Assembly: GCA_000310025.1 (NCBI GenBank)
Contig: FN649744.1
Location: 684,512-748,511, forward strand
Reading direction: 5' to 3'
Origin: Ectocarpus siliculosus
Taxonomy: Eukaryota; Sar; Phaeophyceae; Ectocarpales; Ectocarpaceae
Length of the DNA stretch: 64,000 nucleotides
The translations under genes were made by a program, and so were the position numbers. The notes beneath the pieces are model-generated. The model was not told the DNA's origin. It saw only the letters and a list, made by a program, of their open reading frames with translations, and did no database searches. Of the stretch, positions 47,601 to 59,600 are shown one piece after another; the first letter of the stretch is position 1; each line of letters starts with the position of its first letter.

Positions 47601-50600
47601 CCCAACGCCGCGTAGTGCTGCAGCCCGTTGCACGAACCTGAGATAGGACACCAGACCAAAACAAACGGAGCAGCACCAACGAACGAACGAGCGCTTGGTG
47701 TTATTTATGCATGCACTACACAGCACATGAGCCTGCGCGGTGGGTGTGGTATTGGACGTCGATTGCAACGCCGAACAGATGTTGCTTGGTGGGTTGGTCA
47801 CCGTACGTACGTATAGCTGAGACTTGTTCTTGTCTGTTCCGAAAAGCACATTTTTTTGTTTCTGGCCACTGGTCAACAAACACCAAGTCCTGGTCCAAGG
47901 ATAGCACCACTGTCGAGGAGAGCGCGGGAAACGAGCGAGTGACACCACAGCGTTGGACTATTGGCTAAAAACAGGATGCGGAACGAATCTTCTCAACCTG
48001 ATACGATTCCTTACACCTACATAAAACAAAGGTGCGCGGCCTTTTCATTTGCAAACGAAACCACACTAAGTTAAGCGAACTCCTGTCAAAGCTACAACGA
48101 GATGGCGTCAAGCGTCTTCATGAGGCGTATGTTTATCTTGACCTAATAGCCCCCTCCACCGTATCTCGTCTCACCGTCCTGGTGCACGGGCAGTCGCGAG
48201 AGATACCGAGCGGGGTCTGGGCTGTCCAGGGCAGCCGTGAGGTCGGCACACACGGCGAGGCACTGCCAGGGACTGTCCGCGTCCTTCCACCAGCACTCGC
48301 CCTCCAGCGGCCGCAAGGCGCTATCTCGAACCTGTGGTTGTTGCCGTCGTCATCGAGACCACCACCATCACCACCACCGAGACACGACGGGCACGGGTAG
48401 ATGGAGGACGCGCCAACAAGAAAAGGGCAAGAAACTTTAGCCACCGTCGAGTAGATTCAGGGGACATCTTGCTCTCTTGTCTCACCTCTCGCCAGGACTG
48501 TCGTTTTTGCCAATGCGTATGCTTCGACATTCATTCGTGGTAATGACGATTTTCCAACCCTCCTAACGACGAGGGAGAAGCTGCGATTATGTACGTATGC
48601 TGGGATTACCAGTGGCCATTAATTCGGCCGTACACATGCATGCTACATGCTACTAACCTCGTCCATATGCTTCTCCACGAAAGCGACGCGGTCGTCAAAG
48701 GAAACCTTGTCTTCTCCGTACAAGTTCGCCAGATGCACCTGAACGCGGTTGAACCAAGCCCAACACAGGCAAGACAGGCAGGTATAGGCACAAGACCATC
48801 ACAAACAAAGTTACTCAAAAGTAAGGGTAAGACAGAGAAAGGTTTCACGAAATCGCCGACAGGAAGGGGTTCGAAAGAATCACCACAAGCACCACAACAA
48901 CGACCAACACAAAAAGACACCCAGGGGCAAGAGGAAGCAGACCACAATCTCCGAAAAAACAAACAAGCTGATGCATACGCATACATGTAATGCATATGCA
49001 TACATGCTTTGTCTTTCGATGGCTTCCTTCATCTACCTTGAGCCAGTAGAGCCCCTTCTCCCCCAGCGGTTTGGCCTCGTCGAACACCAGGACCCCTCGA
49101 GAAAAGTCCGACCCCAGGATGTTCAGGTTCGGGGGTATGGGGTACGTCCGTCCCCGGAAGTCCATATTGTACGGGAAGTAGATGACGTGGTCGCGGAACT
49201 CCTGTGCGATATCCACCTTCAACAAAAACGACCGCACACAAGAAACAAGCGGGGGTATGGTACAGGTGGTGTTTTCTTGCTCTCGGTCTACAGCCAAAAG
49301 CGGGTGGCGAGCCAAGGTTGCGCTGACGAAAACTCAAGAACAACGGGTTGTGTAGACCCTGGCTACTATCGGAGACAGAGGCCGTTGCCTTGGCAGTATT
49401 ATCCCACTGCCAGGGGAAGGCTATTTCCTCTCGTAGCATGTAAACGAGGAGAAGAGGGTAGAAAGAGAGAGTGGCCAGAGCGAGTAGAGGGAGAGGAGAG
49501 TCGAAGACTCTCCGCTTCCACTTTCGGCAAGTGGCCAGGGACTTCGGAAGATATCAATCTCCGATGGCGCATTTCCTGTCACTCTCCCTGTGACAAGATA
49601 CCCCGAGGGAGCCATATCTTCCTACACTTTGTATGTGCACACATGGTTGGTTATACTCCCGACAGGTGTCCTCCACATCACCCCCCCCTCTATGCGCCAC
49701 AAGTCCATCTATGCTAAAGATGTGCTTTTGGCGGCCATAGACATGAGTGGCTCATGGAGACACATGTATCGGAGTTAACCTACCCGGTACAACATCGTCA
49801 CCTCGGCCTGATTATCGTACAATGCGTGTTAAAAAGCACGGAGTCTTCAGAAGGAGTAGTGATAGATGTGGTCCATACTAGTATAGTATAGAAAAAAAAT
49901 TGGTGGGTACTGGGCTATCATGATGACAGCTAGTGTACTAAAACATTTCGCATGATCATGCTCGCGTAGCATGCTATGCTGTGGGGTTGATGAGGGACAA
50001 ACTTGTAATGAGGTGACCCTCTGGCAAGTTTGTTTATTCATCATACTTGAAAATCTTGATGATAGATAGACTCGAAATGAGGTGACCCTCCGGCGAGTCT
50101 GTCTATTCATCATAAAATAAGATCGTGATGAGGAATAAACTTGTAATGAGGTGACCCTCTGGCAAGTTTATCTATTCATCAAAAATAAGATCTTGGAATA
50201 GCGGTGGTATAATTCAACTCTCCTCGCGAGTGTTTCCCCAAACACTTCAAATAGGTTGTTTCCACTGGATACAACCAACCACCGTGGCTACTGGTCCCTG
50301 TGCTAAATATGTCCGAAGGCTCGGAAAAGATAGACATGGCACTGATAGGAACGATAGAATAAATCAATCGTTTAATTTCCGGGCCCTAGTTCGTTTTCAT
50401 TTGCTAGTACGGCAGGGCAATTGAGTATCACTCTGTGTCGTAGCAGAACGCGACTTGGCTAATGGAACCTCCTTTAGGAGCCTTCTTCGTCGCTTCCTGG
50501 TTTTGTTCGATGGCTCAGAGCCACGTTGCGTAACCAATTTTCGACTTAAAGGTTCTTGAGGAGTAGTTGCCTGTTTTCGTTTTCGTTTCCCTGTTTTACT

Positions 50601-53600
50601 GGGTGATTTTGGGTCTCCCTGTTCCACTGGGGCACGAGACGACCATTTATCAGGCTGAACGATTTCCATACCACAACGGATTCGGTAGGCAGTTATCATT
50701 TCTTGACATTGTGGAATTTCGTCTGCTCTATATTCAAGGTCTGACTCAGGGCCGTATCATCGAAGACGCAAACGATACTTGTAGTTGTACGGGGTTTTCG
50801 GCCCGCTACCACTCGCTTACCACTTTGTCAACGACGTAGGATTCAATTTTCGGTTGAGCTTCGTCGGGATGGTCTAGCTCGGGCAACGGAATCTGGCGTC
50901 CTAAGAAAAACTCGGAAAGTTTATCAAAGTCTGGCGCAGGTGGCGTTTTCCTCGCGTAGTACTGTTTAATGTGCGCTAAATGGACCGAAACTATCACGAG
51001 TTTCCGAGTTTCGTTCTGGCGTCTCACTCTATATACCACCGGTGATAATGTAGAGCAGATGAGGTCCTCTCCATGGTAACAATAATTTCGGATTTGGTCC
51101 ATCCGAATCCTGGTATGGGCGGTACACAAGTACTAGATCACCAGGTTCAAACACAGGGATAGGGCGCAGTTTAGCGTTCTTGGCATCTTGTTTTTGTGTG
51201 CGTTCCGATAGGTTACGGCGCGCTAGTTCAAGGGCAACCTGTAGATTTTCCTGTGTTGTTTTAGAGAATTCCTCGGTATTTGCTATTGTTCCCACATGAG
51301 GGATGCCGAGAATAATGGTAGTCGTGGCTTCCGACCAAACATAAGAAATAATGGTGTTTCATGCATGGTGGAGCTAAATGACGTGTTGTAAGCCAGTTGG
51401 ACAAAAGGCAGCAGTGATGCCCAGTTATCGCGGTTCATGGAACTATGCATGGCAAGCATTGCGTGCATGGTAGCATGTACTCGTTCTGAGACAGAATTAC
51501 CCTGCGGGCGGTATGGTGTCATGCGGGTTTTCTTAGTTCAGAATACGCTGTAATTGCTGGACTACACTGTTCTCAAATTCAGGTCCTTGGTCGGAATGAA
51601 CTTTTCAGGCGATCCAAAGATGCTGATGATGCGGTCGATAATGGCCTGAGCGACAGTGATTGCTGACTTGTTGGGAATCGGAGTCAACACGGTGAATCGG
51701 GTTGGGTGGTCCATCATGGATAGGACATAGTTGCACCGTACCCCGGCGGCTGAAACTGATTCTACTTTATATTCAACTAGGTCAACCGAAACGCGTTCAA
51801 ACGGTCTTGTACATGTCCCGTTGGTAATTTGTTTTGGTTGTGGGCTGTTTTTCGACGTTGACAGGCTTGGCATTCCTGACACCAAGTACGGACGTCCCGA
51901 TTCATGGTTGGCCACCAGTACTTTTGGCGGATCTTCTCATAAGTCGGTCTAGACGCTAAGTGGCCTCCAGATAATAAGTGGTCGTGATAGGCGTGTAGCA
52001 CTAGTCCGGTAAGGGCGTGAGGCAACACTAATTGGTCACTAAACGTACTACGTTTCCGGAGGTAGCCTGGTAAATACGATTTAAACAGCAATCCATCACG
52101 CACGAAGTAGTACGACGTGGAAGTGGTTGTCTCGTCATCAGGTAATTGAGCGTCAGGTTTTGTAAGATAGTCGATATATTTGCCATATTCAAGAGCTTGT
52201 TTTTCACGCAAGATATCGCGGTTAATAGTTTCAAATACGTTGGTCGCGCTAATATAAACTGATTTCTCAGCGAATAATTCGCGATCACTTTGAACCGGTC
52301 GCAAGTTTTCCAAACGATCTGCAGACACTTGGTACGGACGTGGTGGGACATTTGAATGCAGCGCAGGGTCATCAGGCACATTCCTACATATCGGTGCAAG
52401 TTGCGGTGCTTCCAACTGTTGTTGGTGATCGAACGCAAACAACCGAGATAGGGTGTCTGGGACTACATGTAACTTTCCCGGCTTGTGTCGCACTGTAAAG
52501 TCAAAGGACTGCAAAGCGATTGCCCATCTGGTCAGCATATTAGACGTGTCTTGCATTGTGTACAAATATCTCAATGCCGCGTGATCCGTGACAACTTCGA
52601 AATGTCTGCCCCACAAGTAGGGTCGCCAGTGTTGTAAACTCAAAACCACACCGTAACATTCCTTCATCGTCGCAGAGTAATGACGTTGAGCCTTGTTAAA
52701 TCGTTGGCTAAAATAAGCGATAATATTCACATCGTCGCCGTTCTTTTGGCCCAGGAATGCTCCTGCACCAACTTCACTAGCATCTACGTGAACCACGAAG
52801 TCTTTGGTAAAGTCAGGGAAACATAACACAGGTGCTTTGCTGAGTAACCGTTTGATCTCTGCAAAAGCCTTATCATGTTCCTGGTTCCAACGTTTTGCGA
52901 TCGATTTTACATGCTCTTTTTGTGTGAGTTCGACTAGCGGTGCGATCACCGTAGAAAGGTCGGGTATAAATTTCCTCACATAGTTCACCATTCCCAATAC
53001 TGAGCGAAGTGCTTTGATTGTTTTGGGTACAGGCAAATCGATAACAGATTTTATACGATCTTCCCCAGTACGAATCCCTTTTGCCGACAGTATGTGTCCA
53101 AGGTGTTTTACTTCCTGTGGTCCAAATTGTACTTTGGAGGGTTTCAAGGTAAGACCGGCCGCTTGGAGCGCTTGGAGCATGCTTTCTAATGAGGTTAGAT
53201 GGCTCTCCNNNNNNNNNNNNNNNNNNNNNNNNNNNNNNNNNNNNNNNNNNNNNNNNNNNNNNNNNNNNNNNNNNNNNNNNNNNNNNNNNNNNNNNNNNNN
53301 NNNNNNNNNNNNNNNNNNNNNNNNNNNNNNNNNNNNNNNNNNNNNNNNNNNNNNNNNNNNNNNNNNNNNNNNNNNNNNNNNNNNNNNNNNNNNNNNNNNN
53401 NNNNNNNNNNNNNNNNNNNNNNNNNNNNNNNNNNNNNNNNNNNNNNNNNNNNNNNNNNNNNNNNNNNNNNNNNNNNNNNNNNNNNNNNNNNNNNNNNNNN
53501 NNNNNNNNNNNNNNNNNNNNNNNNNNNNNNNNNNNNNNNNNNNNNNNNNNNNNNNNNNNNNNNNNNNNNNNNNNNNNNNNNNNNNNNNNNNNNNNNNNNN

Positions 53601-56600
53601 NNNNNNNNNNNNNNNNNNNNNNNNNCCGAGCTCCTTCGGAGATAATGAAAACACGTTACGATATTTCGCGCATAAATCCAAGACTTGCGAGCATTGTTGA
53701 GGAGTAAATGTAGTGTTCGTGAACGCTTTTTTCATGGCTCGTTTCAACTCGTCTCGCTTGTGTCTGAATGTGGTTTGGTCGCTATTGACAGCGCTAACTG
53801 CTTTATCGGGAACCGATTTTACTGGCGAAATGTACCCTAAAATAGTGTCGCGTGCAATGTGAACATGTCGTTTGGATGGAATAGCAACTTGTACTGCAGC
53901 AGCCTTGTCCTTCGCTGACCAATTGCATACCGTTCAGGCGACTACGATTGTACGGAACGCTTCGGGTATATTTTCAGACGTTTCGATGTGTTTGGCAGTA
54001 GTGACAATCCGTGGTTCGATCAACGCAGGCGTGTTTGCCTGTGGTGCGTGTTCTGTCACGACGTCTACTGCCATTTCACTTTCGGGGGGAATGCAGTATC
54101 TCCTAGAGAGATATACGGGCACCGCTCCTATCGATGGGTCAAGCGTCACTATAGAAATTTGCGCTGGGGCATCATTATGGTGTCCGCTTGACTATTTGTT
54201 CGACTGTGAGTTGCCGGAATTTTTCGTGTTGAATTTTTAAATGAAAGTTGCTCACCGCACCAATCAAGGACGGCACCGAAGGCATTCATAATGCTATTAT
54301 CGAGCAACATCTTATGCGGACCTAGATTGGGCAACACGAGAGCTTCCACTGGTAGTGTGATATCTCCCAGTGTGAGCTTAAACCGGATGTATCCTAGGAT
54401 TTCTAACGCTGATCCGTCTGCACTATTCAACTGAATTGCGCCAGGAGGCACAGGTTTCAGAGGTAAACGTTGCAGGACCGGATGCGATTTAATAAAAGAC
54501 GCTGATATACACGGTACATCAGCTGCTGTGTCGATATTAAGGTCAGACACAGCGTGATTACAAACTCGGGCAGGAATTCGCACTCTCTTGGAGGACGAAC
54601 TTAACGCATTCGGGTGGTGTGGATATTCACTCAGTGCTGACGCATGAAACGCCGCATAAGTGGGTCCACCACTCGATGCACTTGAAACAGAGACAAGTCT
54701 TTCCGTGTTACTGTATGGTTAAATGGCCACTACCAGTCAATACAAATTCAGCTTGCGGGGCTAACCTCAAAGTCGGCGCACGAGTGCGTTTGTTCTTCCT
54801 ATTTTTCACTGCTTTGCTACTTGACCGACTACGAAACGGTGCCTGGGCAGAACCTGTTACCGATGTCTCAGAATTACTGCTAAAACCTTAAAACGGATTC
54901 ACACCACCACCTCTCACCCGAGGAAAAAATGATTCCCTCGATTTGCTACTGTCATGCACATACGGGGCTGAGTCAACTCGGGCATCCTGTGCTACATGAG
55001 TTCCCTCAGCTAATGGTGTGCTATCGACCTGTGTCCCTACGAGCGAGGAGTCCCGTGAAGGGCCCCGTCATGCTTGAGTTCAAGTCCATCCCTTCTCTTG
55101 AGCGTGTTTTTTCTTTAAACCGCATTGTTCGAGGGGGTGGTTGAACTTGCACCCCGGGTAGGGGCAAGGTTCTTGTTTCGATGCCGAGGAAGAACTGCCT
55201 TTACCCATGGTGCGCGCCTTTTTAGGGGCACCCTGACTCGCACTCGTCTTGTTTAAAGGCCGCATCGACTTGAGCCGGGTGACCTCAGCTTGCAGGTCTT
55301 TAATGACCGCCGTGTTCGAGGACACAGCTGAATAAGGCGACGGTGTGGTTGAACTTGCACCCCGGGTAGGGGCACGGTTCTTGTTTCGATGCCGAGGAAG
55401 AACTGCCTTTACCCGTGGTGCGCGCCTTTTTCGGGGCACCCTGATCTCTTCGTCGAAGCCAGTGTAGACCCTGGCTACTATCGGAGACAGAGGCCGGTGC
55501 CTGGCAGTATTATCCCACTGCCAGGGGAAGGCTATTTCCTCTCGTAGCATGTAAACGAGGAGAAGAGGGTAGAAAGAGAGAGTGGCCAGAGCGAGCAGAG
55601 GGAGAGGAGGGTCGAAGACTCTCCGCTTCCACTTTCGGCAAGTGGCCAGGGACTTCGGAAGAGATAAATCTCCGACGGCGCATTTCCTGTCACTCTCCCT
55701 GTGACAAGATACCCCGAGGGAGCCATATCTTCCTACACTTTGTATGTGCACACATGGTTGGTTATACTCCCGACAGGTGTCCTCCACAGTTGGGTGCATT
55801 TGGTTAATTGTTGACCACACAGCTGCCGAGGCCGATCGCCGGCGGGGTGGTCTGTCTGTCTGTTGGCATGGCTACTTAGCCAGCAAGAGAGAGAGGTGCC
55901 ATGCAATCCGGTCAAGCCCAGGCGACCCCAAACCCTAAATCTTGTTCACGCCGAAGGTGGTCATGTCATATCGGCAGGGGGCTCCGAGGACAGGAAGTTG
56001 AACTTGCCCATACCCTACGGTACGTCTAGCCCCGTGGTGTCGCGGACATGGTCTATGCCGATCATATCTTCATCCACAAGCATCTCTCTGAGCCGCCCTC
56101 GTCTTTTCCCGTTCCCGCTTGAGCGCAAAACTTTGTTCTCTCACCTTGATCTTCATGTCGCAGCGAAGGGAGTGCATATTGGCGTTCTTTTGCTTGGTCT
56201 ACACAACGCAGTGGCAGCACCAAGGAGAGAGGGAGGAGAGAGGGAGGAGAGAGGGAAGAGAGAGGGATGGAGGGGAATGTAGACAGGAACAAAGGACAAA
56301 ACAATGGTCAGGTCAGGCCGAAAGACGCGCAACGACAGACATGAAAAAATACAAAGACACCCGTCTCGCCCTATTAAGCCTACCTGTCAGATACAATCGA
56401 ATGCCTCAGCTCGAACTAGAGTACGCCGAAATTATTGCAGTCGAAACAGGCCTCTGCCTAACACAAAACATACATGTGCCCGCCCGCCCCCCGGGTCGCA
56501 AAATCACAGCGTCCACGCACAAACGAAAACGCGACACTGACAGATAAAAAAACAGAAAACCCTTAAAAAGCTAGAACTTGCAGGGGTATCTTCGATACGC

Positions 56601-59600
56601 AGCACGCATGAGACGCTCCTCACTTCGGCCCGCGCGTTTGGGTGGCTGATGAAAGGGCTCATGTGACTACCAACACATGAGAGCAACCCTCCCCCGTCCC
56701 GTACCTCCAAAGCCGCACACACACGATACAACGTCAGCGGACTGCCTACGCGAAGAGTGGAAGTACGCGAAGAATGTAAGTTTATCACGAAAAATGACAA
56801 GGCAGGGGGACGCACACCGTAACCCTAAACCCCAACCGCAACTTAGACGACTCTAACCGTATCCAGTACGATAATACATATGTTCATGTTTGCTTACTTT
56901 GGAAAAGCCTGCGTAGGCTATTTATTGGCGTTGGGCCACACACCTTTTCGAGCAACCTCTTGTACGCGTAGTGTTTCTGCCGTCTCTCCTTGAAAACCTC
57001 CTCGTCCTCGTGTTCCCCCTGTACGGGTGCCCTCAGCCTGCCCAAGCGGTCCACGGTCACGCCGTCCGGGCGGGGCGGCAAGGGCAGGTCTTTGATCACC
57101 GGCAGGTCGCCCACCGCAATCTTGTCCCTCAGGCACACCATGACCGTATCCAACACGTGCCCGTTAATGCGCCACCGAACCTTTTCAGTCAAGGTACAAT
57201 AGAGTAGCGCGGTACAGTATCTCATGATCGATGATGTTGATTAAATGGAACGAATGGATCAAGCGATGTCCGTGTAAGGGATATCGATTGGTTGATCGCT
57301 GTGAACCAAAGAGTGTAGTGTAGATAGAAAGAGGTGAGCGTGTTTCAACACACCAGGTGTATCTAGGACACATGAAGAACATGTCAAGTGCACAGAAACG
57401 GTACCTGTTGTAGGCGCTTCGCTATCTTAATACCTTGCAAAACTTGTTTATGTGCATCAACATTTCGTCATGTCACATGTCACATGATCAAAACGAGGAA
57501 GACATAGCATACATGTACTGTAGCACCTGACTCAATCAAGTCGTTCTTTCGTTCGTGGATGCTTTCAACGCAACGCCAATCGCACAAGCGAAGCCTCTAC
57601 ATGGGACGTGTGTGTGTCCTCCGGGGGCATGGCAAGGATAAGGTTAAGGATAACGCATGCATACAATACTGGCTCTCAAAAGTGACACAAAAATCACCTC
57701 TCTTGACCATCCCAAGATGGATCACCTATGTATGCCTAGACCGTCAATAAACAACGACACAACACTTTGTTTCTCTCGGTCCCATATTCCGTGTTTCAAC
57801 TATGGCGTTCGGTGGGGTCAGAGGCCACGAGGCTATTTATAGATGCCGTACCCCACCTTCCCAAGGCAGTTGAGTGCCTTGTAGACCTGCCTCAGGTCTG
57901 CTCTCCTCAAGGCGTGCTTCTGTGCTGCCTCTCCCTTCGTGCGCATGATCTGCGCACGCAGTCGGAGAAAGCCCCCTCGGTTAGGCTTAATCCAGTCCAA
58001 AGGGGGCACCAGCATCGGCACGAACCGCGGCGTGGCTAGCCTGCTGATGTCCTCGTCTACCATCTGCCACGCGACGCGAAGCACGTTACAACAAAAAGGT
58101 CAAAACCGCGGTGGTGAAAATGGGGGGGGGGTGCTAACTGGTACGGGTAGCGAGGCATGCGATAGCTAGGGCAAGAGTGGAAGGACAACGTACGTAAAGG
58201 GTGTGAAGGTAACCTCCAAACGCGAAAAACGCACATGCCAAGGATCTGGGTGTCATTTGGAGAAGGGAAACTGCTGCGAAATCGAGTGACATCCAAGCTT
58301 TCACGTCCGCACGTGGGACAGGCAAGGGAGGGCAAGAGCAAAGGTATCGCGAGTCGTGGACTTGGATGTTTTCATGTCAACACCTCGCCGTTCGGACGAT
58401 TTTCTATCAGAGGTCTATGAGACTTGTCAACAACCCAGCCGGCTGTGTACATAGATAGCCTTTGCTCGCCGCGGGACACAAAACCGAAGCAGTGGTCTAC
58501 TCGTCTCTACTGCAAACTGCCTAAAAAAAACAGGCAAGGAGCAGAAGCAACACACGAGTCAGTCACCTTCGAAAAGATCTCCGGCGCCATGGTCAAGCTC
58601 CCCTTCCGGCTATTCTTGCCCTTGATGATGTCGTGAACGAATGCCGCCTTTGGCATTGGAAACCCCTCCGTGTCCCGCTCACCACCCCCTCTCTCCGCCC
58701 CCCCCTTGTCCCACGCCGTCACCACGCCGCTCTCCTTGTCGTACGTCCAACAAGCCGTCTCTATCAGCAGCTTGATCAGCGCCGCGCCTAGCTTTACTTG
58801 GGCGCCGATCGGCCAGTGCGTGTCCTCCAGCATGTCCAGCGCATCCTGGGCTTGCTTGTTCACCTGTTGGAATGTCCGTCCCCGCGAAGCAGGTTCGAGA
58901 ACAAGGAGTGAAGGAAAAAAAAAAAGACAAAATACAGAACTGTACCAGGACAACCAGAGAGTTAGGAATATGCTAACGAGCAGAACGGCATGCTCGAGAA
59001 GAATTCAGCGACCGTTTTGCACCAAACATGCTCTTGGTGCAGGGATGACAGGCAAGAAGCGGCAACAGACGGCCAAGCGGTTCTCTGCACCATCGGCATG
59101 CCGTAATCGTAATCTTCTCCCAAGTCCTACACACGCTTGGGCTTTCATCAAAACAGCACGCTAATCAGATGCACTGCGGTCATGCCTACGAGTGCTGTTG
59201 TAGCGCAGGCCCACTATGACAAGTACTCCAGCGACGATGAAACGATGAAAGCAACAACAACATAACAACAACACCGCATTCCATCAAACAGCACCCACCG
59301 CGCAGCAACGCACGCACCTCTCTGACATGTCTCAGGCTGCTGACTTGCACACGCTGGCCTTTCTTGCCGTCCTTCTTCATTCTCATCAGGTTCACCTTGA
59401 CGAAAAGAACAAAAACAACGACGACAAACCCTGAACAGCGCAACGTGCTTCCCGTGAAGGTTGGAACAACGACAATTCTTGGTATGTTGGGCGCACCCAC
59501 CCCTACGCCCCTTGACATGCCATTGCCATGCCTTACATTGTCATTGCCGTACTAGTCGCTCTGCAAGAATAACGTGGTGGGTGGGTGTATCAATAGCACA

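Follow-up and report, generated by a model that had tools for sequence, protein, structure and literature searches.

What maintains a row of tandem hairpins near the 3' end of a retrotransposon, and is it their pairing that has been kept by selection? The question is raised by the window, the whole stretch of 64,000 nucleotides of DNA that was analysed, in which three such hairpins lie within a Ty3/gypsy-type LTR retrotransposon, here called family A. As the element is encoded on the minus strand, its sense RNA is complementary to the window text. It combines LTRs with TG..CA ends, a target duplication and a polypurine tract, as is usual for LTR retrotransposons, and its pol shows the order RT, RNase H and integrase, with the Pfam profiles RVT_1 (end), RT_RNaseH and Integrase_H2C2 matching successively between 51780 and 53207; the RVT_1 match covers the RT end only and scored below the cut-off (16.2 versus 29.6 bits). 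The parts of the element are:

49347..49350, no strand: low copy of the target-site duplication GTTG (4 bp, read from the flanks), with its partner at 55789-55792
49351..49677, minus strand: 3' LTR, TG...CA in sense, delimited by similarity to 55463-55788 with the ends read from the sequence
49678..49691, minus strand: G-rich polypurine tract, sense AGAGGGGGGGGTGA, adjoining the 3' LTR, its role being assigned from its position
51777..53747, minus strand: open reading frame of pol (end of RT, RNase H and zinc-binding part of integrase), from ORF and Pfam, with 53209-53625 given as N, which covers most of RT
55463..55788, minus strand: 5' LTR, delimited by similarity to the 3' LTR with the ends read from the sequence

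The two LTRs are 98% identical, agreeing in 321 of 328 aligned columns that include 1 gap, and the integrase frame of this copy is interrupted by stops. A C-terminal chromodomain on the integrase is suspected, a candidate having been spotted by visual inspection of the translated sequence. Three further copies (L048, L052 and L055) have a long sense frame, 451-474 aa, whose end precedes the array by about 240 nt in the sense direction, and from this position we infer that pol ends with it. A direct repeat of 107 nt with 95% identity (55130-55236 and 55338-55444) lies close to the inner edge of the 5' LTR. The 3' LTR is flanked on its outer side, at a distance of 120 nt, by an exon of a mitochondrial-type RNA polymerase (49034-49231, minus strand, best E 1.3e-18) on the strand of the element, which may sit in an intron of that gene; two candidate upstream exons of the polymerase (58510-59004 and 56887-57240) gave no match.

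A preliminary description of this DNA had claimed three tandem hairpins with a near-invariant core and arms that had changed while keeping their pairs, situated just before the 3' LTR and not recognised as a described motif. TRF delimits three 69-nt tandem units in 49988-50192 or 49987-50193, direct repeats are 78% and 81% like unit 1, and RNAfold predicts a hairpin for each unit that exceeds its dinucleotide shuffles on both strands (z -4.6 to -6.9), thereby bearing out the three hairpins:

49988..50043, no strand: hairpin unit 1, type a (RNAfold on both strands, 0/1000 shuffles as stable)
50057..50112, no strand: hairpin unit 2, type b, which bears two double exchanges (both strands, 0/1000)
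50126..50181, no strand: hairpin unit 3, type c-like (both strands, 0/1000)

In plus-strand letters each unit folds into a long outer stem, an asymmetric internal loop, a 4-bp stem GAGG/CCTC and a tetraloop. All three claimed exchanges are present in the sequence: unit 2 differs from units 1 and 3 by a T-A/C-G and an A-T/G-C exchange, and one step further out in the stem the units read C-G, T.G and T-A. The array occupies the 3' UTR, after pol and before the polypurine tract; it thus does lie between pol and the 3' LTR, but some 309 nt separate it from the latter. An Rfam scan of 49000-51500 at E up to 5 returned two sub-threshold chance matches, neither of them on the array, and on this ground a known structured RNA was rejected. 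A coding role was likewise rejected, as the spacings of family-A units (65-77 nt, mostly 66-73) are not multiples of three.

Genome-wide searches of the 189-Mb, 492-contig assembly with the array as DNA query gave at least 81 matches. The same assembly has 87 matches to light-harvesting domains, which indicates a photosynthetic eukaryote, perhaps a brown alga. We fetched 28 array places, including that of the window, with a total of 172 units, 112 of them distinct; the places hold 3-11 units each, apart from one remnant with a single unit. The four core pairs are Watson-Crick in 109, 109, 111 and 111 of the 112 distinct units, in agreement with the claim of a near-invariant core, and a core pattern allowing up to 3 mismatches has 168 genome matches, not each of them placed in an element, versus 1 for the reversed control, and on this count a host gene or unrelated copies were provisionally set aside as the source of the array. 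The apical part is near-invariant between the old unit types and the linkers differ, while adjacent type d units are almost the same, which points to recent duplication. As to whether other copies lack the repeats, family-A pol rows of at least 92% identity, merged by hand, define 23 places, of which 21 retain an array match no more than about 4 kb away; C1 has none, and at C11 it is at a distance of 8.5 kb.

The pairing of the arms is more equivocal. Across the 112 distinct units the pair (-3,19) is T-A in 92 and C-G in 14, and the pair (-7,23) is A-T in 89 and G-C in 14, both double exchanges belonging to unit type b. On a tree built from 69 distinct 56-mers both double changes fall on one branch that carries six changes, and under a tree-aware null that places changes at random 142 of 2000 trials yielded at least two double changes, which is not significant. 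Slid pairings on the same tree gave 0 double changes, and the chance that four changes in ten pairs form two whole pairs is about 0.009, a value computed after they had been seen. Private stem changes, collapsed to 32, comprise 6 Watson-Crick (some stemming from register shifts), 10 G.U on the plus strand, 6 A.C and 10 other combinations; in type c two outer pairs are broken in the ungapped register. The analysis of types and private changes omits 6 of the 172 units, which have stem indels, and leaves 2 of the remaining 166 without a type. Changes that break pairs as often as they keep them, which the preliminary description had named as telling against it, are thus not seen on the deep a/b branch and are roughly what is seen among private changes, where they are also expected from the decay of dead copies. 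Hence its statement that compensatory change indicates selection is right in that the exchanges keep the pairs, but too strong for the array alone: with the double changes on one branch, the outcome of the null, the private breaks and type c, the array suggests pairing under selection and falls short of proving it. Better evidence for structure comes from the different array of a sister family and from a hairpin common to three families.

The pol of the sister family, family B, has 75-76% DNA identity to that of family A in the longer matches and about 77-84% protein identity. All four family-B loci fetched (L077-L080) contain a tandem array with a period of 51 nt and 4.8-12.7 copies (TRF), whose units (n=37) form an outer stem of 7 pairs, an AAAA bulge and an inner stem of 7 pairs. 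The second unit of L077 folds with z -4.6 on the plus strand (0/1000 shuffles as stable) and -2.6 on the minus strand (13/1000), and the first beats its shuffles modestly, 23 and 45 of 1000 being as stable. A pattern of the unit has 68 genome matches versus 0 for its control, at 11 places by hand count, and is found nearby at 9 of 12 places with pol rows of 74-80%. Beyond short words, the core letters are not common to A and B units. Among the 19 distinct B units the pairs show one-sided changes only and no double exchange. Stop-free antisense frames of 104-242 aa cross the array in L077-L080, which we read as a side effect of the 51-nt unit period. At one place (G000:C58:239336-241917) the B array is opposite in orientation to the adjacent pol fragment, and the other eight places with both differ from it in this respect.

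The second line of evidence is a single hairpin, H0, that marks the same position in different families:

50228..50247, no strand: marker hairpin H0, its position common to families A, B and C, with CCC(C)AA in the plus-strand loop

The surrounding stretch 50218-50253 matches family B at 83-84%, and the hairpin is present in all four B loci (about 1316-1351 in L080) and at the matching place in the family-C loci L081, L082 (1410-1450), L083 and L085. An A-type H0 pattern with up to 5 substitutions occurs in 24 of the 28 A loci. Between A/B and C the stem letters have changed on both sides while the plus-strand loop CCCAA is kept; within family A alone H0, in a 60-nt stretch, is no more stable than expected from shuffling, with 64 and 103 of 1000 shuffles equalling it. 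With respect to this marker the A array lies between H0 and the LTR and the B array between pol and H0, so that the two do not occupy the same place and probably arose independently. No comparable array is found in the 2.0-3.5 kb fetched from families C (75% protein identity, four loci), D (58%, one locus) and E (37%, one locus, where the stretch may stop short of the 3' LTR), which contain short tandem runs with periods of 6-24; the array is therefore not needed for the lineage. In family D the flank motif of H0, allowing up to 1 mismatch, was not found in L084 1900-2900.

In both families the units fold better on the plus strand, which is antisense to pol. Among 80 distinct A and 19 distinct B units this holds for 77 and 16, respectively, with RNA energies, and for 75 and 11 with DNA energies. 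The two wobble pairs that distinguish unit types are G.U on the plus strand only, whereas private wobbles (10 G.U on plus versus 6 on minus) have no consistent strand preference, family B also contains pairs that wobble in sense only, and for the family-C H0 the sense strand gives the more stable fold.

The explanation that we tentatively prefer, without going so far as to call it probable, is that the array is a multivalent docking array for a protein on the RNA of the element. Slippage of the reverse transcriptase, or strand transfer, would raise the number of units; each hairpin would dock a protein, either the Gag/nucleocapsid of the element itself, for packaging, or a host factor for export or stability; many docking sites together would confer avidity; and joint change of hairpin and protein might lead to the different spellings in sister families. 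Supporting this are 1) the folding of the units relative to shuffles, the core pairs that are Watson-Crick in at least 109 of 112 units and the type-b exchanges that keep both pairs; and 2) the separate array of family B and the retention of H0 in families A, B and C with altered stem letters in C. It is weakened by the tree-aware null, the breaks among private changes and in type c, the lack of double exchanges in B and the missing arrays in C, D and E, and the better antisense folding is not predicted by a function of the sense RNA. A more general form of the idea, that the 3' UTRs of this lineage repeatedly evolve arrays of one hairpin in family-specific spelling that dock a co-evolving protein, and that plant arrays between pol and the 3' LTR could be alike, is speculative and rather unlikely to be correct.

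The docking array has its most serious rival in a functionless by-product, a doubtful but real possibility, whereby copies of a hairpin-prone 3' UTR sequence accumulate when the reverse transcriptase slips or switches templates and errors of copying from arm to arm keep complementarity. The variation from 3 to 11 units and the freshly duplicated type d neighbours fit such a process, and a single arm-to-arm copying event would give both double changes on one branch; for the 3' UTR arrays of plants, too, strand transfer is the origin hypothesised in the available text of PMC7004042. It accounts less well for an apical part that is near-invariant across old unit types while the linkers differ, for two related families with independent arrays that both fold, and for a single, non-tandem hairpin, H0, that is kept despite changes in its letters. 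If the hairpin form of the units persists while their sequence is replaced independently, the question of what such arrays do becomes testable; if they are a by-product, the case shows reverse transcription multiplying hairpins and mimicking compensatory change.

The array might instead act as DNA, its units being imperfect-palindrome sites for a chromatin or transcription factor or extruding as cruciforms, and the Su(Hw) array of the Drosophila gypsy element is the model for an array of binding sites at this level. The near-palindromic core, the folding on both strands and the private G.U pairs without consistent strand preference would all be accommodated, but a DNA site would call for neither asymmetric internal loops nor long arms in which exchanges are paired, and the core letters are not common to A and B, and we regard this as improbable. 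That the acting RNA is instead antisense to the element, transcribed into or from its 3' end as structured antisense or small-RNA precursors, is very unlikely, since the better plus-strand folding of A and B units and the type-level G.U pairs that speak for it are opposed by the origin of the A preference mostly in a few ancestral changes common to many units, by the better sense folding of family-C H0 and by the sense-only wobble pairs of family B.

Returning to the docking array, the nearest functional models are the RNA transport elements of mouse IAP and musD, which serve NXF1 export (according to the available text of PMC12786077). These are likewise structured cis-acting RNAs of LTR retrotransposons and might illustrate by analogy how a region of hairpins could act; unlike the present case they are not known as tandem arrays of one hairpin, and the array had no match in our Rfam scan. 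Ectocarpus chromodomain Gypsy lineages, for which C-terminal chromodomains are reported in the available text of PMC12477816, are possible relatives, being Gypsy elements of a photosynthetic stramenopile likened here by description; the terms "hairpin" and "stem-loop" are absent from that text. Among the titles and abstracts listed in literature searches, none dealt with tandem hairpins in LTR retrotransposons.

The closest parallels are the tandem repeats described from plant Ty3/gypsy elements of the Tat/Ogre/Retand type, where they follow pol and precede the 3' LTR (available texts of PMC11963269 and PMC7004042, in both of which the word "hairpin" is absent). They are held to arise by abnormal strand transfer (PMC7004042), and the 2025 survey calls their origin and function unknown and describes antisense frames in the same region of Retand elements as well (PMC11963269). 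Families A and B likewise contain tandem repeats in this interval, with sequences particular to each family, and the likeness to the plant arrays, as far as those texts go, extends to the position in the element, the family-specific sequences and the variable number of units; it is a likeness of arrays, and the element itself may stand outside the plant Tat lineage. Thus, tandem arrays in this part of an element are known, and what sets the present ones apart from the plant descriptions in these texts is that their units fold into strong hairpins whose apical part hardly varies, and that hairpin units are conserved in two related families of an alga whose lineage, as we infer it, is not plant-like.
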